64,000 nt of DNA from a virus: positions 1 to 64,000 of the IMG/VR virus record IMGVR_UViG_3300021364_000012; one strand, 5' to 3'. Each line of letters begins with the position of its first letter. Position 1 is the stretch's first letter. Of the stretch, positions 15,607-63,997 are shown piece by piece. The translations under genes were made by a program, and so were the position numbers. The notes beneath the pieces are model-generated. The model searched no databases, was not told where the DNA came from, and saw only the letters and a list, made by a program, of their open reading frames with translations.

Positions 15607-16173
15607 ATTCAAAGCTTAAGTTTGAAGTATGGAAGAAATCAGAAGCAGAGAAAGTTGGGGATTGACTTAAATGAGAAATACGAAGAGGTCAAAAAGCTTT
15701 TCTACAAACATTGTGGGAAAATGTGTTTAGACGCAAAGTGCGACCCTCAAGACGTTCTTCAAGAAGTGTGCAAAGGTATTCTTATCCGAAACAAAGGAAC
15801 ATGCCCCTTCGATGAAAAGAAGTCTGCTTTCTCAACTTATGTCGTTATGGTGAGCAGATGTGTCACAACAAACTATATAAATAAAAGAAACAGACACTCG
15901 CAGAAAGAAACCACAGGAGTGGAAGACACAATCGAAAAAACAGATTACGCAATCGCACACAGTTGCACTGTAGAAGACTATGACACTATTTTAACAATCA
16001 AAGAAGTAAGAGACCACCTCGCAGGAAATATGAGGGACATTTTCGATGACTTATTACTAGGACACAACGTGTCACACATCTCTAAGAGTCGTGGGATAGA
16101 CAGTCGAAAAATTAAAAACTACATAGAAAAAATAAAGAAGGTCTTAATACCACTCGGAGTAGCACCATGCTGA
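15607..16173 (+). CDS. sigma-70-like RNA polymerase sigma factor, probable ATT start
   Basis: A protein of about 188 residues. The segment DPQDVLQEVCKGILI followed by FSTYVVMVSRCVTTNYI matches sigma region 2, which binds core polymerase and melts the -10 box. The C-terminal part ends in a helix-turn-helix-like segment (VSHISKSRGIDSRKIKNYI), as in region 4. It probably redirects host polymerase to phage promoters. No in-frame ATG suits: AAGGAG at 15593-15598 is ideally spaced for the rare start ATT at 15607; TTG at 15622 or 15655 are alternatives. It overlaps the thymidine kinase gene by seven bases. Confidence 0.65.
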   Translation: MQSLSLKYGRNQKQRKLGIDLNEKYEEVKKLFYKHCGKMCLDAKCDPQDVLQEVCKGILIRNKGTCPFDEKKSAFSTYVVMVSRCVTTNYINKRNRHSQKETTGVEDTIEKTDYAIAHSCTVEDYDTILTIKEVRDHLAGNMRDIFDDLLLGHNVSHISKSRGIDSRKIKNYIEKIKKVLIPLGVAPC

Positions 16174-16769
16174 CTTTTATATATTCCACCGTCAACGCAG
16201 GCAAAACTGCTAATCTTCTCATGAGAGCATATTCTTGCTGTGAGAGAAATATCTCCCACTCAATATATGTTCCAGACGTAGCTTCAGCGAGAGACGGTAA
16301 AAATCAAATCGCATCAAGAATTGGATTCACTAAACAAGCCATCTCGGTGTCAGAAGAAGACAACCTCCTAGAAATAACCGTCAAGAAACTTATTAATGGT
16401 GGGAAAGACGATGTGATCTTTGTAGATGAAGCACAGTTCTTAACCAAAGAACAGGTTATTCAGCTATCAAACATAGTCTCAGAGCTAGAAATAAAAGTCT
16501 ATGCGTATGGTTTACGCACAGACTTTAGAGGCGAGCCTTTTGAAGGTTCAGTATATCTAATGTCTTGGGCAGACGAGATACAGGAAATATCCACATTCGG
16601 AAGTAATGGAAGCAAAGCCATCTTTAATCAGAAGATAGACAAAAACGGAAACGGAGTCTCTGAAGGAGACTCCGTTGACGCAGGGTTCCACTATATCCCT
16701 GTAACTCGATCTGAGTTCGTACTACTAAATCGAGCTACGGATGTTAAAGGTGAACTGGATATAGAGTAG
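16167..16769 (+). CDS. tdk: thymidine kinase (type II) without zinc cysteines
   Basis: A 200-residue protein that should phosphorylate thymidine to dTMP. Visible are the P-loop STVNAGKT (residues 7-14), the Walker B VDEAQFL with catalytic Glu88, and the lasso-region motif YGLRTDFRGEPFEGS. In cellular type II enzymes two Cys pairs bind zinc. Here the first pair is replaced (ISTFGSNGS, residues 141-149) and the second is also missing. It overlaps the sigma-like gene and converges on the sheath gene with a 45-base overlap. Confidence 0.8.
   Translation: MLTFIYSTVNAGKTANLLMRAYSCCERNISHSIYVPDVASARDGKNQIASRIGFTKQAISVSEEDNLLEITVKKLINGGKDDVIFVDEAQFLTKEQVIQLSNIVSELEIKVYAYGLRTDFRGEPFEGSVYLMSWADEIQEISTFGSNGSKAIFNQKIDKNGNGVSEGDSVDAGFHYIPVTRSEFVLLNRATDVKGELDIE
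16641..16676 (-). terminator. Rho-independent terminator of the sheath transcript, inside the tdk gene
   Basis: A perfect 11-bp inverted repeat (AACGGAGTCTC / GAGACTCCGTT, loop TGAAG) lies 49 bases beyond the sheath stop. Read on the minus strand the stem is followed by TCCG and then five T. It sits wholly within the coding sequence of the convergent thymidine kinase gene. Confidence 0.65.
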
Positions 16770-29255: not shown

Positions 29256-29473
29256 GTGATTACGAAAAAATAGACCATCCAGATCATTATCAAGGCGTAA
29301 ATATGGAAGCCATTGATGTGATAGAACAGTATAATCTTAACTTCTCATTAGGGTCGGCTCTTAAATATATTTTAAGAGCAGGAAAGAAACCTAATGAGAA
29401 AGCATCTGAAGACCTCAAGAAAGCAGTATGGTATCTCCAAAGGGAGATAAGCAGAAAAGGAGAAAGCAATTGA
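29252..29473 (+). CDS. DUF3310 family protein, TTG start
   Basis: A 73-residue protein. HPDHYQ near the start, then FSLGSALKYILRAGKK and DLKKAVWYLQREI, match DUF3310, a small phage family sometimes annotated as nucleotide-kinase-like. The start is a TTG at 29252 that overlaps the preceding TGA (TTGA), so translation is coupled. Confidence 0.8.
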   Translation: MSDYEKIDHPDHYQGVNMEAIDVIEQYNLNFSLGSALKYILRAGKKPNEKASEDLKKAVWYLQREISRKGESN

Positions 29474-30489
29474 ACTACATTGCAGAATACTTATGGATTG
29501 ACGGGGGGAACCCAACATCAAGAATAAGGTCTAAGACCAAAGTTTTTGAGACAGACAAAGAATTAAGCTTAGAGGTTTTCCCTGAGTGGTCTTTTGATGG
29601 CTCTTCTACAGAACAAGCAGTAGGAAATAACTCAGACTGCGTTCTAAGACCTGTGTTCTTTTGTTTCGATCCTACAAGGAAGGGAGTCAACACTGTCATC
29701 GTCCTATGTGAAGTGTACGATGTAGATGGAAACCCACACCCTTCAAACCATCGAGCTAAGTTAAGAGAGACTCTTAACCAAAAGCCTAACCTCGACGCTT
29801 GGGTAGGTTTTGAACAAGAATACACTCTATTTCTTGGATCAAGACCTTTAGGATTTCCTTCAGAAAGAAGATTCCCTCCCGCACAAGGTCCTTATTATTG
29901 TGGCGTTGGTGCAGATGAAGTATCTGGAAGAGAACTTGTAGAAGAGCACCTCAACGCATGTATTTCTGCTGAAATACCAATCACAGGGATCAATGCTGAA
30001 GTGATGCCGGGTCAGTGGGAGTTTCAAATCGGAGGACCTGGAGTAGACCCACTTACAGGTTCAGATTGTCTATGGGTGGCTCGTTGGTTGCTCTATAGAC
30101 TTGGAGAGAAATACAATATTTCTGCGACTCTCGAACCTAAGCCCGTGACTGGAGATTGGAACGGTGCAGGTATGCACACAAATTTCTCAACAGAGTCTAC
30201 AAGAGCAGAAGGAGGTCTTTCAGTGATAGAGCAAATCATGCACACCATGAAAGAAAGAATCTCTGAACACCTTGCAGAATACGGAGAAGGTTACGAAATA
30301 CGTCTCACCGGCAAGCATGAGACTTGTCGATATGACGAGTTTAAATGGGGAGTGTCAGACAGAACTGCGTCTGTAAGAATCCCCGTGACCACATCCAAAG
30401 AAGGAAAAGGCTACTTTGAAGATAGAAGACCCAACGCCAACGCAGACCCATACAGAGTCGCTAGAGTTATCGTTGAGTCCTCTAAATAA
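29470..30489 (+). CDS. glutamine synthetase, type II (eukaryote-like), TTG start
   Basis: A 339-residue protein joining ammonia to glutamate with ATP to make glutamine. The start is TTG 29470, overlapping the DUF3310 stop and preceded by GGAG. Metal ligands Glu115 and Glu117 lie in WVGFEQEYTLF. GINAEVMPGQWEFQIGG, NGAGMHTNFST and RLTGKHET also match GSII, and the length is normal for the decameric type II enzyme, not the longer bacterial GSI. Phage-borne GSII is unusual. It could capture ammonia released by the GuaC and deaminase steps encoded elsewhere in the window (inference). Confidence 0.9.
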   Translation: MNYIAEYLWIDGGNPTSRIRSKTKVFETDKELSLEVFPEWSFDGSSTEQAVGNNSDCVLRPVFFCFDPTRKGVNTVIVLCEVYDVDGNPHPSNHRAKLRETLNQKPNLDAWVGFEQEYTLFLGSRPLGFPSERRFPPAQGPYYCGVGADEVSGRELVEEHLNACISAEIPITGINAEVMPGQWEFQIGGPGVDPLTGSDCLWVARWLLYRLGEKYNISATLEPKPVTGDWNGAGMHTNFSTESTRAEGGLSVIEQIMHTMKERISEHLAEYGEGYEIRLTGKHETCRYDEFKWGVSDRTASVRIPVTTSKEGKGYFEDRRPNANADPYRVARVIVESSK

Positions 30490-33139: not shown

Positions 33140-34015
33140 TTAGCGAGTAACGGTGAGTCGTGCAAGACCCTTCGGGTTATAGGCCCCAATACCCAAGTTC
33201 TCAAATACGCTGAAGCCAATGGTACGAGCCTTTGGATCGTCAGCAGAGAGAACGGTAAGCTCAGTACGAACAGGAATACGACCGAACATCTCAGGCTCAC
33301 AGCAGACGTAAACAGTTCCAACAGGAACAAGACGGCTAGTGATAATCTGAGCACCCCAAAGGGTAGCCTGAAGACCTGTCTTGAGAAGTGCCGCTTGGCT
33401 CTCAATGTCGAGAATGTCACGACCGAACTTACGGATGTCAGCGTAGTCACGAGCATTCATGAATACACGGGCAACACGAAGATCGTGACGCTCGATGAGG
33501 CTGTATGCGTCAGCAAGAACAGCACCATTAAGTGGAGCAATAACAGGGATGTCAGCGTTAGTCTGACCAGGAACGCTGTCAAAGCCAGAAGTCGCAACAG
33601 CATCAAGAATAGCGAATACACGCTCGTCCTCTGCCGCCTGAATCTGTGCTCTAGCGAGGTCCTGTGCTCTCTCGATGAGATCGAAGCGTCTTTCCTTAAT
33701 CTGAGTCAATGGAATCTCAGGGTTAGAAGCAATCTCAAAGAGAGGGAAGATCACACGACGTGGCTTGGTGATAGCGAGGATGTTCTCACCCTCTTCACCA
33801 ACTACAAAAGCAGTCACGTCTGGATCTTTGTCATAAATCGGCAAAGCACCATCAGGAAGTTGCTCTACGAGGAAGGTCTTACGACCAACGCTCGTATAGT
33901 CTCTTCTTAGTCTGAGAGGCTGAGTCATGCTCGCCGCTAACTTACTACGACCCTGTGGAGTCTTGATGTAGTCAGAAATAATCTTCTGCTTTACTGCGTT
34001 ATCTACTGTACTCAT
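33140..34015 (-). CDS. major capsid protein (HK97-like)
   Basis: A 291-residue protein with strong AAGGAG ribosome site. The N-terminal helical part, E-loop-like residues 90-125 and the ending IGFSVFENLGIGAYNPKGLARL fit HK97-fold capsids. Its codon use is more GC-rich and regular than its neighbours, as expected for the most abundant protein. It lies between the decoration-like gene and a strong terminator, downstream of the scaffold and protease genes. The enriched heptamer AGAAATA occurs only once in it. Confidence 0.75.
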   Translation of the reverse strand: MSTVDNAVKQKIISDYIKTPQGRSKLAASMTQPLRLRRDYTSVGRKTFLVEQLPDGALPIYDKDPDVTAFVVGEEGENILAITKPRRVIFPLFEIASNPEIPLTQIKERRFDLIERAQDLARAQIQAAEDERVFAILDAVATSGFDSVPGQTNADIPVIAPLNGAVLADAYSLIERHDLRVARVFMNARDYADIRKFGRDILDIESQAALLKTGLQATLWGAQIITSRLVPVGTVYVCCEPEMFGRIPVRTELTVLSADDPKARTIGFSVFENLGIGAYNPKGLARLTVTR

Positions 34016-44305: not shown

Positions 44306-47300
44306 TTACTTCCTTTTTCCTAATATCCTATTTCTTAAAGAATACTTATTTTCTCTAGGAGCTGTCCTTTGAGAGGACACACCTCGACCACGCATTCTAG
44401 GATAAGAAGACGCAAAACCTTTTCCGCTAATAGAAGTATTATTAGGAGTTCCACTCGCAAAATATTTCTGTTTCCCAAAGTTCCTTGAAGCTACCCACAC
44501 CATTCTTATTAGTGCATCGGACATATCGTCATGCTTACCCTGCACTTGAGGAGCTTCGACTGTAATCACATGCTTACTGTGTACATGTGCTTGTAGCTCA
44601 AAAAGCTCAGAGATATAGGGTGCGTGTCCTTCAACTTCAGGGTTAGGGTTGTCGTATAACGCTAATTTCTCATCCCACATCAAAGACTTGAAGTTCTGAT
44701 ACATATCCGAAGTCTTATTCTTAGTCATGTGTTCCGACTTCATCTGACCCAAGCCTCTTTTTGAGAGAGCTTGTTCCAAAGGAATACCAGCCCATTGGTC
44801 AAATATACCCTCAGAAACATAAAACTTCTTAGTCAGTTGCAAAATCCAATCAGCAACATCGTCAAAATCGAGCCTGTCCTTATCAGCGTAATCACCTTCC
44901 CCTGCTTTAATCTGATCTACAAGATCAACCACCACCTTGTTTTCTTCTAAATGACCAATCGCTATAGCGGTTCCGTCGCCTACGAGACCTAAGTCGATAC
45001 CCATAAAATGTGGCTTTCTTGCAGGTGCTCTATTTCTTTGTCTGAGACTAGGGTCTACACACGCTAGGAGGTCTTCTTCTTTCTCTATCCAACCCCTCGT
45101 TCTATCCGTAAACTCTCCACCATACTCCGTAAAGAAAACAGCGGCGTTCTTTAAATAATGCTTCTCAAACTCTTCCGCAGGGACGGTGGGGTTCACCTCC
45201 CAAGTAGGGGCTTGAACACAAAGCATATTTGAAGAAGCCCCTCCACCTTGCATACCTATATTAAATAGCTTGTAGAAGAGTCCCTGTTTGCCCAATGGAG
45301 AAGAAATAAGAATAACCCGACCTTCCACGTCTCCAATGGGCTTTGTTGGGTTTGTAGGGTCTTTCGGAGAATATGCCGAAGTTGAAGGCACTACCGCATT
45401 ATAGACTTCTTCAGCTCCCGACTGTCCACTCTCAGTAAAGTGAGCTACCTCGTCAAGTATCACGCAAATATTACCTGCACCACGAAGACCTTTAGCGACA
45501 CAAGATCGGAAGGTTACTTTAAGAGTGGCTTTTGCATCTGCGTTCTCAATATACCTCCCGTATTTCTCCACATCGTTTGGTGTTTGAAAACGTGCATAAG
45601 ACAGTGTGTTATTTGCTGTGTAAGGACCAAAAAAAGCACAGTTCCGATAGTGACCTGAAACTTCTTGATAAAGAAGACCCGCTTGGTCTTTGTCTGTAGC
45701 GACAGAAATAATCTGAATATTATTGCTCGCAGGAAGACCATAGTATTTCTGAGGGTCGCCTTTTTTGATCAGCTTGTAAGTCTCATAAGCGGCGATGCAA
45801 GCAGAAATAGTAGTGTTATGGTTTGTAAAGCAATTCCCCACAAACATAGAGCCTTCAGGCACGTTCAAGTCATAAACATGACACTCTGAATCTTCGACAC
45901 TTTTAATAGTGTCGAAGAAATAGTGGGTATCTAAAATATGCTCAAGCTTATCTTTTATTGAGTTAGACAAACGCTCGGAGTCAAGCACCTTCTTTATACG
46001 AGGGAAAGAAAGAGAATCTGAGTTATTTAAAAGTCGAGTCGGTACACCTCTTTCTTTTAAGTACCCACCTAAACCACGAACATAGAAATCATGAGAGCTT
46101 CTCAAAGTGGACTCAAGTTCTTTGAGTACCTTTTTCTTTCTATCTGAAATAAATCCGATCTCCCTACAGAACACACGATAGGACTCTAAACCTTTTACCC
46201 GAACACGACCTCTAACCTGACCTTCCTCATTTTTTGAATGGGAAAATGAAGAAACGACACCTAAGTTCATAAGAATTATGTGGACTTGTCGTAAAAGCTC
46301 CAAAGAGGCAGAACACAAAGAAATCTCTTTTGATTGCTTTTCAGAGCAAACGTAGCCGTCCGTCTCAAAGAGTCCCCTTAAAAAAGCACAGATAACAGGT
46401 TTGGGGCTTCTAAGAATTACTTCTGGAACACACTTCTGTTGTAGCGGTGTTTTAATTCCCCAACCAATCTGATGTAAGAAATCCCTGTGCTTCTTACTGT
46501 GACACACGACACGATACGCATTTGCTTCCAATACAGGATAACAAGAAACCTTGCCAAAGAGGTGTACCATCTTAAGCACTAATATATCTTTAAAGTCTTT
46601 CTCCCCAACAGTAACCACAACATCTTTTTCTGAAGCCCATGTCCCATCTCCCACTAGGACACCAAGCATCTCCCCCCAATCTTCATTCAAATATTCTGGA
46701 AGGTTCTTCACACCTTCAACGATATGCTCTGAGAAAGAAACATAATCTTCTGCAAATATGCCCCTCTTGTAATTAAGACAAGCAACATCCCCCTCAACCA
46801 CATCCTCTAAATACTTCCAAGAAATATTAAAGTCAGAGTCTAGCACCTTTATACGATGATTTGGAGTTCCTTCTATTTCAAAACCCGAACGTGTTGTTAT
46901 TCTTTTAGTTTCCTTGATGCCTCCATTATAGAAAAAGGCCGCCCTAGACTTTCTCCCACCCTCTTGTAAGACTTCCGTAGAAATAGGTTGATACTCAGGA
47001 GCACCCAAAGACGCATCACCTAGTGTGTCTATTCTTACTAGACCCCTACTCGTAGGTATAAGAGTGTCTCCCCGAACACACTTTCCCGAGCGTCTCCCTA
47101 TTGAGAGAATCATCTCTCTTCTTTGCTGTCCCGGAATCACTTCTCCGATGTTACAGCGTCCTTCATCAAACAGTTTCTTCAAATAAGTCTTTTCAGTGTG
47201 TTCTTCCCAATCTTCCCTCCTCCAATCACTTATTTTGAAGGTGTAAGTGTCGTCTAGCTCTAAGCCGTAGTGAGCTTTAAGAATGATTTTCTGTATTGGA

Positions 47301-47419
47301 AATAAAGTCATCTTCAAGCCCCAAGGGGCTTCTACAAACTCTATAATGTCTGCATCTCTCTCAGACTGCTTGCCCATTCGAGCCGAAGCACCAATGGCTA
47401 AAGAAGAAAGACTCATCAC
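44306..47419 (-). CDS. terL: terminase large subunit, interrupted by an intein
   Basis: A 1037-residue precursor giving a 615-residue ATPase-nuclease that pumps DNA into the head. The Walker A loop GRRSGK (residues 108-113) is split by an intein of 422 residues and continues with TTISACIAAYE. Walker B with catalytic Glu is NICVILDEVAHF. The nuclease domain starts with GIDLGLVGDGTAI. Two starts are possible: GTG 47419, used for numbering here, or ATG 47416. Excision is needed to rebuild the ATP site, so an unspliced enzyme would be inactive. Confidence 0.9.
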   Translation of the reverse strand: MMSLSSLAIGASARMGKQSERDADIIEFVEAPWGLKMTLFPIQKIILKAHYGLELDDTYTFKISDWRREDWEEHTEKTYLKKLFDEGRCNIGEVIPGQQRREMILSIGRRSGKCVRGDTLIPTSRGLVRIDTLGDASLGAPEYQPISTEVLQEGGRKSRAAFFYNGGIKETKRITTRSGFEIEGTPNHRIKVLDSDFNISWKYLEDVVEGDVACLNYKRGIFAEDYVSFSEHIVEGVKNLPEYLNEDWGEMLGVLVGDGTWASEKDVVVTVGEKDFKDILVLKMVHLFGKVSCYPVLEANAYRVVCHSKKHRDFLHQIGWGIKTPLQQKCVPEVILRSPKPVICAFLRGLFETDGYVCSEKQSKEISLCSASLELLRQVHIILMNLGVVSSFSHSKNEEGQVRGRVRVKGLESYRVFCREIGFISDRKKKVLKELESTLRSSHDFYVRGLGGYLKERGVPTRLLNNSDSLSFPRIKKVLDSERLSNSIKDKLEHILDTHYFFDTIKSVEDSECHVYDLNVPEGSMFVGNCFTNHNTTISACIAAYETYKLIKKGDPQKYYGLPASNNIQIISVATDKDQAGLLYQEVSGHYRNCAFFGPYTANNTLSYARFQTPNDVEKYGRYIENADAKATLKVTFRSCVAKGLRGAGNICVILDEVAHFTESGQSGAEEVYNAVVPSTSAYSPKDPTNPTKPIGDVEGRVILISSPLGKQGLFYKLFNIGMQGGGASSNMLCVQAPTWEVNPTVPAEEFEKHYLKNAAVFFTEYGGEFTDRTRGWIEKEEDLLACVDPSLRQRNRAPARKPHFMGIDLGLVGDGTAIAIGHLEENKVVVDLVDQIKAGEGDYADKDRLDFDDVADWILQLTKKFYVSEGIFDQWAGIPLEQALSKRGLGQMKSEHMTKNKTSDMYQNFKSLMWDEKLALYDNPNPEVEGHAPYISELFELQAHVHSKHVITVEAPQVQGKHDDMSDALIRMVWVASRNFGKQKYFASGTPNNTSISGKGFASSYPRMRGRGVSSQRTAPRENKYSLRNRILGKRK
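45815..47080 (-). mobile_element. intein with LAGLIDADG homing endonuclease in terL
   Basis: Residues Cys114 to Asn535 of the terL precursor. Splicing motifs are visible: the first Cys after the Walker A Lys, block B GTPNHRIKV with His188, and the C-terminal HN before Thr536. Endonuclease motifs are LGVLVGDGTW and LRGLFETDGYV. The usual histidine of block F is not obvious (VYDLNVPEGSMF). Insertion at the P-loop is a known hot spot for inteins. Confidence 0.9.
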
Positions 47420-52758: not shown

Positions 52759-53280
52759 CTATAAAAGCATTATCGAAACCAAAACCCCATTTGACTCCAA
52801 GTAAGAAATACCATCCGTGTGGCTGTTAGGCACACTAGAAATAATAACTCTTGTAATACCAGCATGGTGGATTGCCTTCGCACACATCAAACAAGGACTA
52901 CAAGAAACAATCATCCACTTACCTAAAGTAGCTTGCCCTCTCCTTGAGCTGTTAAGAATTGCGTTCATTTCTGCATGGTGGCAACCCACATCATTCTGAG
53001 TGCCACTCACTACCGAAATGCTATTTCTAAGACACACTTCTCCCCCACAAAGAGAGTCTTTAGAACCTCTAGGTGTCCCATTATATCCATCACTTAAAAC
53101 CACACCATCCCGTGGGTCGATGATGATTGCACCTACAGACCTCCGAGGACAAGGTGAGGCTTCTGAAAGCAAAGCACACTGCTTTATTCTTATTTTTAGT
53201 AGTTTGTCTTTCACGTCTCCCCAAACTTTCTGGTCAATTAAAGACCGAAAAAGTATATAATACAGACAAGCAACCGACAA
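52759..53280 (-). CDS. dCMP/cytidine-type deaminase
   Basis: A protein of up to 173 residues that should deaminate dCMP to dUMP, the substrate of thymidylate synthase. The zinc site is complete: HAE (His102, Glu104) in CHHAEMNAI and PCLMC (Cys130, Cys133). Further Cys and His residues may form a second zinc site. The longest frame starts at TTG 53280, but these first bases resemble promoter sequence (TTGTCG and TATATA), so the true start is probably near residue 20-25. Confidence 0.85.
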   Translation of the reverse strand: MSVACLYYILFRSLIDQKVWGDVKDKLLKIRIKQCALLSEASPCPRRSVGAIIIDPRDGVVLSDGYNGTPRGSKDSLCGGEVCLRNSISVVSGTQNDVGCHHAEMNAILNSSRRGQATLGKWMIVSCSPCLMCAKAIHHAGITRVIISSVPNSHTDGISYLESNGVLVSIMLL

Positions 53281-56110: not shown

Positions 56111-57394
56111 ATGTTACAAAGATACCAAGATCAAAGAATTAGTAAAATATTCAGCCAGAGAAAAAGAGTAGCAATCTTCACTCAAATAGAAGAAATAGTC
56201 TGCCTCTTTTATAGTACTAAAGAAGAAATGCCCGAGGAGGTCTATCTTTCACTGAGAAATATAGACCACGAACTCATCACAGAGAGAATGCCTGAACTAG
56301 AGCGACAAACAAAGCACGAAACAGTTGCCTATCTAAGAGCAATCTCTGAACAGATTGGAGAAGAAAACTCAAAGTACTTACACAAAGGACTAACTAGCTC
56401 TGATATTTTAGACACATGTCTCGCTCTCCAAATGAAAGAGAGCTTAGAACACTTGTTAGATTTAGTACAATCGTTCTTAGACACACTGAGGCACAAAGCT
56501 TGTGTCCACAAGCACACCAAAATGATAGGAAGATCACACGGAAGAGCTGGAGAAATAACTACCTTCGGACTCGTACTACTTTCTTTCTATACTGAATGGG
56601 CTAGAAACAAAGAACGAATTGAAATGGCATTGTCTGAAATAAGCTTCGGGTGTATTTCTGGACCTATGGGGAACTTCAGCTTAACTTCCCCAAAGCTCGA
56701 AGAAGAAATATGTAAGCATCTAGGACTCAAACATGAACCTGTTTCTAGTCAAGTAATCCCAAGAGACAGACACGCATTTTTGTCCTGTGTCCTTTCTTTA
56801 GTTGGTGCTTCCCTAGAAAGAATTTCTACCGAAATTAGAAATCTCAGCCAATCTGGAATAGATGAAATATCAGAGAAATTCTCAGACAAGCAAGCAGGAA
56901 GCTCTGCGATGCCTCACAAAGTGAATCCTATATTGTCTGAAAATGTAACAGGATTGGGCAGATTACTAAAAGGATATGTCTCTCCAAGTTTAGATAACGT
57001 ATCTCTTTGGTATCAAAGAGACATGAGCCACTCTTCGGTAGAAAGAGTAACCATAGAAGACTCTCTCCATCTAGCGTGTTTTGGGATAAAAAGAATGGAG
57101 AAAGTCATTAAAAACATGACGGTTTATTCTGAGAACATGCGAAGAAATATAAACCGAGAGAAAGGTTCATTTCTTTCCCACAGCATACTCTATTATCTAA
57201 TGGATCGTGGGTATGGTAGGAAAGAAGCCTATGAGATCACTCAAGAGCTTACGAAAGAAGAAAACAACTTGATTGAGACTCTGAACAAGCTAAAAGACAC
57301 ATACTTCACTAGCGAAGAAATTGAGAACATAGTCAGCGAAGAAAAGTACATCTCTAATGTAGACTACATCTTCAAAAGAACACTAGGAGGCTGA
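56111..57394 (+). CDS. purB: adenylosuccinate lyase
   Basis: A 427-residue protein that splits adenylosuccinate into AMP and fumarate. The family signature AGSSAMPHKVNP is intact, including the flexible-loop serine, and IGRSHGRAGEITTFG matches the catalytic His region. Length and overall layout fit cellular PurB. It is the first of three genes (purB, guaC, purA) with gaps of two and one bases, so one transcript is almost certain. The ribosome site is weak. Confidence 0.9.
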   Translation: MLQRYQDQRISKIFSQRKRVAIFTQIEEIVCLFYSTKEEMPEEVYLSLRNIDHELITERMPELERQTKHETVAYLRAISEQIGEENSKYLHKGLTSSDILDTCLALQMKESLEHLLDLVQSFLDTLRHKACVHKHTKMIGRSHGRAGEITTFGLVLLSFYTEWARNKERIEMALSEISFGCISGPMGNFSLTSPKLEEEICKHLGLKHEPVSSQVIPRDRHAFLSCVLSLVGASLERISTEIRNLSQSGIDEISEKFSDKQAGSSAMPHKVNPILSENVTGLGRLLKGYVSPSLDNVSLWYQRDMSHSSVERVTIEDSLHLACFGIKRMEKVIKNMTVYSENMRRNINREKGSFLSHSILYYLMDRGYGRKEAYEITQELTKEENNLIETLNKLKDTYFTSEEIENIVSEEKYISNVDYIFKRTLGG

Positions 57395-57396
57395 AA

Positions 57397-58452
57397 ATGC
57401 GTATGGAAAACGAGTTGAAGCTAGACTTCAAAGATGTCCTTTTCAAACCTAAGAGGTCTACTCTTACTTCAAGAAGAGAAGTCAATCTCGATAGGTCATT
57501 TAAGTTGAAATGGTCTAATAGGACTTGGAAAGGGATACCCATAGTAGCTTCAAACATGGATACAGTAGCCACTTTTGAAGCTGGGAAAGTTCTCACTAAT
57601 CTTAATATGATGATCTGCTTGCACAAGCACTACACCGAAGCAGAGTATGTTAAGATATATGAATGGGTCTGCGAAAGAGGAGGAGATTTCTCGCAACATT
57701 GGGCTTATTCTATGGGAATATCAGACGCAGAGTTTGATCGCCTAAGAAGCATCCAATCTCTAACAGAAAACGCAATCTCCACCATCTGCATTGATGTGGC
57801 GAACGGATACACTGAGAGATTTATCAATTTTGTCTCTAAAGTGAGAAGAGAGTACCCTGACAATATAATTATCGCAGGAAATGTCGTAACCGCTGAAATA
57901 ACAGAACAGTTAATCTTAGCAGGTGCAGACATTGTTAAGGTTGGAATCGGGTCAGGCTCCGCCTGTACCACTAGAATACAAGCAGGTGTGGGATTTCCCC
58001 AACTTTCAGCCGTCATAGAGTGTGCAGATGCCGCACATGGTCTTGGAGGACGTATCATGTCCGATGGGGGGTGTACTTGTGCAGGAGATGTGTCTAAAGC
58101 CTTTGGAGGTGGAGCAGATTTCGTAATGCTTGGAGGTATGCTCGCAGGGCATACAGAGAACCTCAGATTAAACGAAGAGGGCAAAGCAGTCTTCTATGGT
58201 ATGTCGTCTAGTACAGCTATGGAGAAATATCACGGAGGCGTGAGCAGTTACAGGTCTTCTGAAGGACGCACAGTGACACTCAACCCAAGAGGACCTTTAA
58301 AAGACACAATGCTAGAAATACTCGGCGGTGTTCGATCTACATGTACCTATATTGGAGCAAAAGAACTTAGAGAGCTGAGTAAATGCACAACATTCATTCG
58401 AGTACTTCAGCAATACAACCCCGTATATGAAGCACAGACAAAGGAGAAATAA
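57397..58452 (+). CDS. guaC: GMP reductase
   Basis: A 351-residue protein that reduces GMP to IMP and releases ammonia, using NADPH. It follows the Escherichia coli GuaC pattern along its full length, as recalled: LKLDFKDVLFKPKRSTL, IVASNMDTV, GIGSGSACTTR with catalytic Cys190, and GGGADFVMLGGMLAG. It lacks the CBS domains of IMP dehydrogenase, and the length is that of GuaC, so reductase is preferred over dehydrogenase. GGAGG lies before the ATG. Confidence 0.9.
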   Translation: MRMENELKLDFKDVLFKPKRSTLTSRREVNLDRSFKLKWSNRTWKGIPIVASNMDTVATFEAGKVLTNLNMMICLHKHYTEAEYVKIYEWVCERGGDFSQHWAYSMGISDAEFDRLRSIQSLTENAISTICIDVANGYTERFINFVSKVRREYPDNIIIAGNVVTAEITEQLILAGADIVKVGIGSGSACTTRIQAGVGFPQLSAVIECADAAHGLGGRIMSDGGCTCAGDVSKAFGGGADFVMLGGMLAGHTENLRLNEEGKAVFYGMSSSTAMEKYHGGVSSYRSSEGRTVTLNPRGPLKDTMLEILGGVRSTCTYIGAKELRELSKCTTFIRVLQQYNPVYEAQTKEK

Positions 58453-58453
58453 G

Positions 58454-59629
58454 ATGAGCACCGTTGCAGTTATCGGAACACAGTGGGGTGACGAAGGTAA
58501 AGGTAAGATCGTAGACACTATTTCTGAAAGCTCGAACTACTGTGTAAGATTCCAAGGCGGTTCAAACGCAGGACACACAATCATAGCCAACAATAAAACA
58601 TTCAAATTAAGATTGACCCCAAGCGGAGTGATACAAGGAGCAATCGGAATCGTAGGGTCAGGTTGTGTTGTAAACTTAGATGTCCTTGAACAAGAAATAA
58701 CGAGCCTTGAACTCCCAAAAGAAAAGCTTTTGTTAGACAACAAGAGCACTTTAATCCTCCCCCTCTATTTAAGAATAGACTCGGAGAGAGAAGAGAAGAG
58801 AAATAAACCTATCGGCACAACAAAGAACGGTATTGGAGTTGCCTACGAACAAAAAGCATCTCGAAGTGCTTTTAGAGCAGAAGACCTAAAAAACCCTAGT
58901 GTTTGGGTAGACAAAGCAAGAGGTGTCGTAACTAGATATTTCTCAGACAAAGAAACAATAAACAGAGAGGTTGACGAAATCATAACACACCTCTCACACC
59001 ACGCATCTTTCTTCAAAGAGAGAATTAAAGACACAGGGGAAATCCTCCACCAAGCATTTCTTAGGGAGGAAAGAGTAGTCATAGAAGGTGCTCAAGGCAC
59101 TCTCTTAGACATAACTCACGGCACATATCCTTTCGTCACAAGCTCCACAACTATTTCTGGAGGAATAAGTGCTGGAATAGGATGTGCCCTACCAAGAAAC
59201 TCTGAAATTATCGGAGTAACAAAAGCCTATTGTACTAGAGTTGGTGCAGGTGAGTTCCCTTCTGAAGAAGAGGGAGAGATTGAAAAACTGCTACAAACAA
59301 AAGGTAAAGAAATAGGTGTGGTGACAGGAAGAAGAAGAAGATGTGGCTGGCTTAATCTTGACGAGCTAAAGTACGCCCACAGGCTTAATGGGTTCACACA
59401 AATCGCTATTACAAAAGTAGATGTATTAGACGACTTCGAGCAAGTCAAAGTCTTAGTAAATGGCGAATTAGTTGCTTTTGAGGGTTGGGAAAACAGCTCA
59501 AACGCTACAAGCTATAGCGACTTACACCCCAACTTGAAGAAATACCTCTCATATATCGAAGGTCAAGTGGGAGTGAAAATAGGAATAGTCTCAACAGGAC
59601 CAAGAAGAGAAGACACTATTTTCGTCTAA
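58454..59629 (+). CDS. purA: adenylosuccinate synthetase (PurA type, not PurZ)
   Basis: A 391-residue protein that joins aspartate to IMP using GTP. The start is ATG 58454 with AAGGAG before it. The P-loop GTQWGDEGKGK retains catalytic Asp13, and NAGHT retains His41. PurZ, the phage enzyme for diaminopurine DNA, lacks the Asp, so this is a normal IMP-using PurA. Later motifs (GAQGTLLDITHGTYPF, STGPRREDTI) also match. With GuaC and PurB it makes a complete GMP-to-AMP route. Confidence 0.92.
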   Translation: MSTVAVIGTQWGDEGKGKIVDTISESSNYCVRFQGGSNAGHTIIANNKTFKLRLTPSGVIQGAIGIVGSGCVVNLDVLEQEITSLELPKEKLLLDNKSTLILPLYLRIDSEREEKRNKPIGTTKNGIGVAYEQKASRSAFRAEDLKNPSVWVDKARGVVTRYFSDKETINREVDEIITHLSHHASFFKERIKDTGEILHQAFLREERVVIEGAQGTLLDITHGTYPFVTSSTTISGGISAGIGCALPRNSEIIGVTKAYCTRVGAGEFPSEEEGEIEKLLQTKGKEIGVVTGRRRRCGWLNLDELKYAHRLNGFTQIAITKVDVLDDFEQVKVLVNGELVAFEGWENSSNATSYSDLHPNLKKYLSYIEGQVGVKIGIVSTGPRREDTIFV

Positions 59630-60165: not shown

Positions 60166-60909
60166 TTAATCTAAGGGTGGAATCTTCCCATGCTTCACAA
60201 GATTCGCATGAGCAAGAGGCCACACTTTTTCAATCTGCCTAGAAATCTCCCGAGCTAAAATCTTAATCTCCCATTGTGCGTCCTCATGGTCACGCTTGGC
60301 GATGAAGCTGTTAGCCCAATTATGGAGCGAACCCGTACACCAATAGGTGGCATAAAGGTTCTGAGGTAAAATCATCCTAGCTTGCTCTCTCGCAACACCT
60401 AGCTCCACCATTTGATCAAAAAGACGTACAGAATCTTTAACATGATTCTTAACCGCAGAAACAGCATCTAGTCTTAGGAACTTCGGATATTCATATGGGT
60501 CGTACTCAATCGTAGGATTGAAAGTCTCGTCAAGGCTCGCTTGACGATTCTTAACGTCTTGCTTTCTCATCTCAGAAGGAAGATAAAACTCCAACTTCTC
60601 AGAAGTATATCTACGAGAAATCTCGTTAAAAGAAAAAGTGCGATGTCTCATGTGTTGTCGAGCAACAAACATCGGAACCTTTATCCAAAAAGTAATAACA
60701 TTATGCTCGGTAGTTGAAGTATGACCGCTTCGGATAAGGAAGTTTGAAAGTCGCTCTTCACGCTCACCCATCTCAGTGCTGACTTGATCGAGACTAGCCC
60801 GAGCCGCATTGACGATGGTTAGGTCATCGCCCATATGCTGAATGAGGGCAACCCCTCCAATCCCATCACCATAAATGGGAACCATATTTTCTCTGAAATC
60901 TTTTGCCAT
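60166..60909 (-). CDS. thyX: flavin-dependent thymidylate synthase
   Basis: A 247-residue protein that makes dTMP from dUMP with FAD and methylene-tetrahydrofolate. The defining motif RHRTFSFNEISRRY is intact at residues 88-101, and the length is normal. It uses the dUMP made by the dCMP deaminase at 52759-53280. It replaces or supplements a host ThyA. Confidence 0.95.
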   Translation of the reverse strand: MAKDFRENMVPIYGDGIGGVALIQHMGDDLTIVNAARASLDQVSTEMGEREERLSNFLIRSGHTSTTEHNVITFWIKVPMFVARQHMRHRTFSFNEISRRYTSEKLEFYLPSEMRKQDVKNRQASLDETFNPTIEYDPYEYPKFLRLDAVSAVKNHVKDSVRLFDQMVELGVAREQARMILPQNLYATYWCTGSLHNWANSFIAKRDHEDAQWEIKILAREISRQIEKVWPLAHANLVKHGKIPPLD

Positions 60910-61002: not shown

Positions 61003-61524
61003 TTAAACTTCAGAGTCTCCTTCTTTTTCTTCTCCGTCCCACTCTATTTCCACCTTCTCTTCTTTATCTTTATTATCTTTTGGGTTGATCCATTGACTGA
61101 CCACACCTTTAAGCTGAACTTGATCTTCTGTCCTAGTCTTAATGACAGTCTCCCCCTTAAACACGGAGAGCTTGTCTATCACAGCAGACTGAAGCTCAAA
61201 GATTTGCTCTCTAAGCAGTTGCATTTGTATCTGTGCATCCCTCAAACGGGCTATTAGAGCTTCACGATCTCCATTGGCGTTAGCCAACTTGTCTTTAAGC
61301 TCTTCTACTTCTGAAGGGTCTCTACCCGAAGCTATCGCAAGCATCGAAGAAATACTACCCGTAAGCATACCTATTATTCCAATAAGAATGTCTCGGTTCT
61401 CCTCCACAATCTTTGTGGTAGATAAAAAATAAATCAACTCACAGATAGCCAACATAAAGACGACACTAGCCCACCACCCTCTCTTGGCTTTTTCTGACTG
61501 TGTGAACTGTTTGTTTGTGCTCAT
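61003..61524 (-). CDS. two-helix membrane protein with coiled coil, coupled to the cyclase
   Basis: A 173-residue protein. Two membrane helices at about residues 17-35 and 46-66 are followed by a coiled coil (about 71-115) and an acidic tail. Its start overlaps the cyclase stop (ATGA), so the two are translated together. Small membrane effectors paired with a nucleotidyl cyclase occur in Pycsar-type defence. A holin is the other natural reading of a two-helix phage protein. Confidence 0.6.
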   Translation of the reverse strand: MSTNKQFTQSEKAKRGWWASVVFMLAICELIYFLSTTKIVEENRDILIGIIGMLTGSISSMLAIASGRDPSEVEELKDKLANANGDREALIARLRDAQIQMQLLREQIFELQSAVIDKLSVFKGETVIKTRTEDQVQLKGVVSQWINPKDNKDKEEKVEIEWDGEEKEGDSEV

Positions 61525-63052: not shown

Positions 63053-63997
63053 ATGTTGTCGTGGGACACAAAAGAGATATTTCTAAATAAGGTCAAATCA
63101 AAAGGCGGTTTTGCTTGTCACCACGCACATTTCGACAAGGCATATCTCATCAATGAAGAAGCTCTGGAAATATCCCAAAGCTCCTTACAAGAAAAATGGA
63201 AACTCTATCGGAAGTATAAGTCTGAGTACACAGAAGAAGACTTAGAAAGAAGAATGACCCTGTGCATAGAGAATATGATCTCTCAAGGTGCTAAATACTG
63301 TAAGACTTTTGTGGATGCAGATTCTATTGTGGGACTATTACCCGTAAAAGTAATGTCTTCTTTGAAAGAGAAATACAAAGAACAGATAAAGCTAGAAATC
63401 GCAATACAGCCCTTAGAGGGAGTCCTTAACCCTAAGACTCAAAAAACATTTATTGATGCGTGTGAGATTGCAGATGTTATTGGCGGTCTCCCCGACAGAG
63501 ACGAAAACCCAAGACAACACGTCGATTTCTTAATGGGACTTTCTAAAGAAATGAACAAGCCCATTGACATCCATGTAGGTCAAAACAACATCCCTTCAGA
63601 ACAAGAAACAGAGATGGTAGTGGATCGGATAACCTACCACCGATTAGAAGGAAGAGTTAATTTAGTACATGCGATTTCTCTTTCCTGTCAGCCTAAAAGA
63701 GACAGAGAAAGAATCATTTCTAAATTAAGAGACACAAATACAAGCGTTATTGTCTGTCCCTCAGCGGCTCTTAGTATGAAACAACAATCTGAGAAATATG
63801 CTCCAATACACAACTCAATAGCTCCTGTAATGGAGCTATTGGAGCAGGATGTGAATGTACTACTCGGAGTAGATAACATCCACGATCTCTTCATGCCTCT
63901 AGTAGATGGAGACCTCTACTTCGAGAGTCGCCTACTCATGGAAGCAATAAGATACTATGACTTAGATAAAATAGCAGAAATAGTATCTAAGTCTTAA
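63053..63997 (+). CDS. cytosine-deaminase-like amidohydrolase
   Basis: A 314-residue protein with AAAGGAAG upstream. It follows the CodA-type amidohydrolase order: HAH (His24, His26), HVGQ (His174), VHAISLS (His206) and GVDNIHD (Asp274). All four metal positions are present, but the catalytic Glu three residues after the third His is Gln177 here. It is shorter than CodA (about 427 residues) and lacks its C-terminal beta part. The substrate may be a nucleobase or a related ring, and activity is uncertain. Confidence 0.65.
   Translation: MLSWDTKEIFLNKVKSKGGFACHHAHFDKAYLINEEALEISQSSLQEKWKLYRKYKSEYTEEDLERRMTLCIENMISQGAKYCKTFVDADSIVGLLPVKVMSSLKEKYKEQIKLEIAIQPLEGVLNPKTQKTFIDACEIADVIGGLPDRDENPRQHVDFLMGLSKEMNKPIDIHVGQNNIPSEQETEMVVDRITYHRLEGRVNLVHAISLSCQPKRDRERIISKLRDTNTSVIVCPSAALSMKQQSEKYAPIHNSIAPVMELLEQDVNVLLGVDNIHDLFMPLVDGDLYFESRLLMEAIRYYDLDKIAEIVSKS

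Follow-up and report, generated by a model that had tools for sequence, protein, structure and literature searches.

A contiguous purB-guaC-purA set predicted to convert GMP to AMP in a tailed-phage genome fragment

Can a phage carry a complete route from a guanine to an adenine nucleotide? The question is raised by three genes at 56111-59629 (plus strand) of a 64,000-nt viral sequence, called the window here, which covers positions 1 to 64,000 of IMG/VR virus record IMGVR_UViG_3300021364_000012 (G000; 75,908 bp). The record is incomplete and comes from a tailed phage; among its genes is one encoding a major capsid protein of the HK97 fold (NF042927, 156 bits against a cut-off of 80). The genes lie in the order purB-guaC-purA and are flanked by minus-strand genes:

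56111-57394, plus strand: purB, predicted adenylosuccinate lyase (427 aa)
57385-57390, plus strand: Shine-Dalgarno site AGGAGG for guaC, within the end of purB, six bases ahead of guaC
57397-58452, plus strand: guaC, predicted GMP reductase (351 aa)
58440-58446, plus strand: Shine-Dalgarno site AAAGGAG for purA, within the end of guaC, seven bases ahead of purA
58454-59629, plus strand: purA, predicted adenylosuccinate synthetase (391 aa)

The tight packing described in the initial annotation was borne out, the intergenic gaps being 2 nt (purB/guaC) and 1 nt (guaC/purA). The list of open reading frames placed the purA start at 58427, inside guaC; the likely start is 58454, which has a Shine-Dalgarno site and agrees with relatives. 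Gene spacing is the evidence that suggests co-transcription as an operon. Promoter- and terminator-like matches at the locus were not above shuffled expectation, and a scan for repeats returned short degenerate matches only.

Each of the three proteins scored over a curated NCBIfam cut-off, as expected of the genuine family members they had been taken for, and their family matches (E-values of 1e-113 to 1e-157) rule out chance. PurB passed TIGR00928 (380 bits, curated cut-off 326) and matched T. maritima PurB (1c3u) with an E-value of 5e-97. It possesses His69, His143 and, from residue 264, SSAMPHK, with the fumarase-superfamily signature SSxMPxKxNP present as SSAMPHKVNP. On this evidence it is an adenylosuccinate lyase of the Bacillus/Thermotoga type, predicted to cleave adenylosuccinate to AMP and fumarate.

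GuaC passed the GMP reductase model NF003470 (524 bits, curated equivalog cut-off 397) and narrowly missed the sister model TIGR01305 (476 bits, cut-off 492). Its closest solved structures are the human GMP reductases (GMP reductase 2, 2a7r, E-value 1e-125), and the catalytic residues Cys190, in GSxCTT, and Glu289 are intact. The identity that the initial annotation had named as fatal to its own reading, an IMP dehydrogenase, was ruled out (TIGR01302, 192 bits against a cut-off of 481.5). By these scores the protein is a GMP reductase of the E. coli/animal type, predicted to convert GMP and NADPH to IMP and NH3.

PurA passed NF002223 (416 bits, curated cut-off 402) and narrowly missed its sister model TIGR00184 (380 bits, cut-off 396). 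Asp13 and His41 were found at exactly the positions first assigned to them, and a TGRRRR motif was also seen. A 2026 survey of Z-DNA gives Asp13 as 99% conserved in a PurA clade made up of 251 mostly prokaryotic sequences (PMC12884076). The early statement that the protein is not PurZ held, with a score of 118 bits against the PurZ cut-off of 300 (NF038379) and Asp13 retained. The protein is, as predicted from these features, a canonical adenylosuccinate synthetase that would form adenylosuccinate from IMP, aspartate and GTP.

Established enzymology fixes the direction of the route, as the initial annotation stated: GMP becomes IMP, then adenylosuccinate and finally AMP. Under cellular conditions the reactions of GuaC and PurA are practically irreversible. 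Activity, co-expression and benefit are what we infer: the phage probably encodes a one-way GMP-to-AMP interconversion, with extra adenine nucleotide as the gain. The three genes would probably be translated from one message. GuaC would convert GMP to IMP with NADPH, PurA would form adenylosuccinate from IMP with aspartate and GTP, and PurB would release AMP and fumarate. During infection the guanine pool, including host GMP from RNA turnover, would be drained into AMP and then ATP, a phage ribonucleotide reductase would carry adenine nucleotides on to dATP, and host control of the A/G balance would be bypassed. The benefit would be a larger supply of adenine nucleotides for the DNA and RNA of the phage and for its energy needs. 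A fall in GTP, which PurA requires, should slow the route and make it self-limiting. The motive first suggested, the needs of an AT-rich phage in a GC-richer host, is no more than plausible; set-carrying loci have 26-47% GC and guaC-only viral loci 26-50% (median 38%), a comparison of the phage side only that gives no signal for it.

We estimated how often the set recurs through pattern-based scans of viral contigs and whole-record searches, in which many records are fragments and counts are lower bounds. A single-sequence purB query found none in viral contigs, and a two-sequence alignment was required. The suggested search for the same gene order in other phages recovered the set, in other orders. 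G003 (312 kb), which is related to the window phage but rearranged, matched 54 of the 74 window ORFs and has the order amidohydrolase-purB-purA-guaC; its shared proteins are mostly 40-70% identical to those of the window phage and gene order is shuffled, with the trio still adjacent. Contig L002 (18 kb, 28% GC) carries purB-purA-guaC, the only genes it has in common with G000 and G003. By gene content, two further records, G008 (159 kb) and G011 (464 kb), are relatives of one another and unrelated to the window phage; their trio comes from other subfamilies. Scores were 375 for the GMP reductase (NF003966, cut-off 344), 614 for PurB (NF006764, 446) and 488 for PurA (NF002223, 402) in G008, and 628 for PurB (NF006764, 446) and 533 for PurA (NF002223, 402) in G011. 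G006 and G007 hold PurA, PurB and a guaC-like gene; they were counted as ambiguous, since the guaC-like gene at L150 stayed below the cut-offs of the GMP reductase and IMP dehydrogenase models alike.

Partial sets were found in three relatives of the window phage whose records may be fragments: G002 (227 kb) has guaC and purA, and G004 and G005 have kept purA with only a C-terminal scrap of guaC, purB being found in none of them. At L160:9986-11877, a relative has an intact purA and a C-terminal scrap of guaC; purB was not found in its 177 kb. Judged from L160, the set appears to be decaying in some members. Two guaC genes of other phages are interrupted. In a related phage (L157:5057-6541) a 142-aa intein-like insert with a Hint domain lies exactly between GSG and SACTT, in the loop of the active-site Cys, and the G011 guaC (L189:15187-16701, minus strand) is broken at the same position into two ORFs, an arrangement like that of a split intein, or of an intein whose frame is broken. 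A split intein from IMPDH-1 has already found use as a tool.

On phylogenetic trees the GuaC proteins of window-type carriers formed one clade apart from other viral GuaC (SH-aLRT 99), as did their PurA proteins apart from other viral PurA (SH-aLRT 96). None of 40 other guaC-bearing viral records had purA, and viral contigs with guaC alone far outnumbered those with the set, so that the step from GMP to IMP may often be the selected trait by itself. A PurA-type gene with no clear guaC was seen in a group of marine viral contigs that includes L094 and L096, two of which have a PyrD-like gene nearby. The domain AIRS_C (PurL/PurM) and GuaA were detected in 0 of nine set-carrying records, of which G000 is a fragment, and in 14 of 14 control genomes. 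A place for the set in a phage de novo purine pathway was rejected on this basis: it neither completes de novo IMP synthesis nor makes a reversible cycle. In the trio, amino-acid sites are conserved and synonymous sites saturated. The presence of the same trio, drawn from different subfamilies, in unrelated large phages makes the route look selected and not an accidental pickup.

Other genes for nucleotide metabolism are present in the record, including a cobalamin-type ribonucleotide reductase-like gene and the first three of the following genes, the fourth being a possible partner of the set:

16167-16769, plus strand: thymidine kinase (PF00265, 99.7 bits)
52759-53280, minus strand: deoxycytidylate deaminase-like gene (PF00383, E-value 3e-21; phrog_174 dCMP deaminase, E-value 2e-31)
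60166-60909, minus strand: thyX, FAD-dependent thymidylate synthase (TIGR02170, 155 bits, cut-off 88)
63053-63997, plus strand: amidohydrolase (NF005365, PRK06886; 365 bits, cut-off 340), cytosine-deaminase-like

The first three and the reductase-like gene are common in phages and fit, mildly, a remodelling of nucleotide supply. Elsewhere in the window, a protein with a nucleotide cyclase catalytic domain (PF00211; 61521-62381, minus strand) has a counterpart of 71% identity in G003, where its neighbour at 61003-61524 is kept too, and a phage glutamine synthetase with both Pfam domains lies at 29428-30489 (plus strand). A large ORF with a LAGLIDADG intein in the packaging and structural region (44306-47419, minus strand) is probably the terminase large subunit. 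The major capsid protein (33140-34015, minus strand) is 97% identical to that of G003 (180564-181442), while other shared proteins mostly show 40-70%; recent exchange or an unusual constraint would account for this.

The amidohydrolase has homologues in phages (L158:7814-8770, L160:8708-9673, G011:34998-35963) and at bacterial loci L161-L188. It adjoins purB-purA-guaC in G003 and purA in G004 and G005, and it is also present in the unrelated set-carrier G011; a partnership with the purine set is possible from this distribution. PyrD and PyrF-PyrE genes adjoin it in L161 and occur nearby in the phages (L158/L160; G003/G005), and in the bacterial relative L178 an N-terminal CarB-type MGS domain is fused to the amidohydrolase, other relatives looking alike. 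Among 18 bacterial genomes with the amidohydrolase, some of them incomplete metagenome assemblies, the PyrC dimer model had no match, the PyrC multifunctional model was passed by one and matched below cut-off by three more, none exceeded the ATCase cut-off and 10 exceeded that for OPRT. ATCase matches in these bacteria were considered as divergent PyrB and set aside, as L207, L208 and L210 adjoin arginine-biosynthesis genes and are probably ArgF, a reading that covers only these three loci with readable neighbours. The amidohydrolase is a candidate for a so far unrecognised enzyme early in pyrimidine synthesis. It is a tentative idea, and one that we find rather doubtful, that the trio forms part of a broader programme by which the phage rebuilds both A and U/T supply, the amidohydrolase then acting as a non-canonical enzyme of the early pyrimidine pathway, for instance a dihydroorotase.

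Four other explanations of the set were weighed. Its purpose could be to lower guanine nucleotides (GTP, ppGpp and the precursors of c-di-GMP/cGAMP) and so blunt host stress or defence signalling, with AMP as a by-product. The wide distribution in viral contigs of guaC alone, a pure GMP drain, speaks for such a role. Against it, guaC suffices to drain GMP, the presence of PurA and PurB argues that AMP matters, and PurA itself uses up GTP as a cofactor. The whole set is accounted for less well than by the GMP-to-AMP route, and we consider this purpose unlikely. Less credible still is that the genes are passengers, partly decaying and of little use to the window phage. The partial sets in G002, G004 and G005 would fit, whereas the three frames are intact and under amino-acid constraint, and the genes have stayed together through order shuffling and been re-assembled elsewhere from other subfamilies. 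PurA and PurB might instead repair IMP/ITP left by host deaminase defences (RADAR-like, Cad1-like) acting on adenine nucleotides, GuaC being an unrelated neighbour; the return of IMP to AMP is indeed the established PurA/PurB reaction, yet GuaC produces more IMP and stays with PurA/PurB across unrelated phages, and this very improbable reading also explains the whole set less well than a GMP-to-AMP route. Synthesis of a modified DNA purine (2-aminoadenine or similar) by PurA acting as PurZ has next to no standing, although phage PurA homologues are often PurZ and the best PHROG match of purA is named 2-aminooxy adenylosuccinate synthetase, because Asp13 is kept, the PurA model and not the PurZ model was passed, and GuaC would strip off the very 2-amino group required for Z.

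The one-way GMP-to-AMP interconversion that we favour corresponds to the cellular one (guaC, purA and purB in E. coli) in its three reactions and enzyme families; the phage genes differ in being contiguous, virus-borne and free of GuaA or PurL/PurM. In keeping with the view that such a phage-borne set was undescribed, a search of 5.4 million open papers turned up no purA/purB/guaC set of phages but only lone GMP reductases, for example in pelagimyophages (PMC7029224) and in haptophyte viruses. No phage isolate clearly carrying all three genes was among the matches listed. Xanthomonas phage XacN1, Stenotrophomonas phages RAS14/CM1 and Caulobacter phage Cr30 have a lone GuaC that belongs to the same family as the window protein, with 41-45% identity. 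Unlike in the window phage, purA/purB are not annotated within 8-10 kb of guaC in XacN1, RAS14 and Cr30, and the lone-GuaC isolates were absent among the matches listed for PurA or PurB. Records labelled as phages of Listeria, Staphylococcus, Enterococcus, Acinetobacter and Salmonella and rich in PurA/PurB were left out of the count as apparent host contamination, given their bacterial gene names and the many tiny unannotated contigs assigned to a single 'phage'. Also set aside was Microcystis phage MaAM05, whose purB lies amid bacterial genes (metG, ftsH, proS, lepA and the like).

The 2-aminoadenine phages with PurZ/PurZ0 (PMC8342488, PMC12884076) likewise reprogram purine supply through an adenylosuccinate synthetase-like enzyme, and some Streptomyces and Gordonia phages encode PurB too. 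The substrate of PurZ is dGMP, whose 2-amino group is retained, whereas the window phage has a canonical PurA and a GMP reductase that removes this group. General phage nucleotide genes (ThyX, dCMP deaminase, thymidine kinase and ribonucleotide reductase), several of which are present in G000, boost dNTP supply; they concern pyrimidines or the reduction of ribose, whereas the trio would turn one purine base into the other.

Overall, the observation behind the initial annotation was confirmed and its interpretation partly supported. Phages are known to be capable of pyrimidine synthesis, of ribonucleotide reduction and of swapping adenine for 2-aminoadenine. A complete phage route from one purine to the other was not found in the literature searched, and the recurrence of this set from different subfamilies suggests that the supply of adenine versus guanine is limiting in some large phages.
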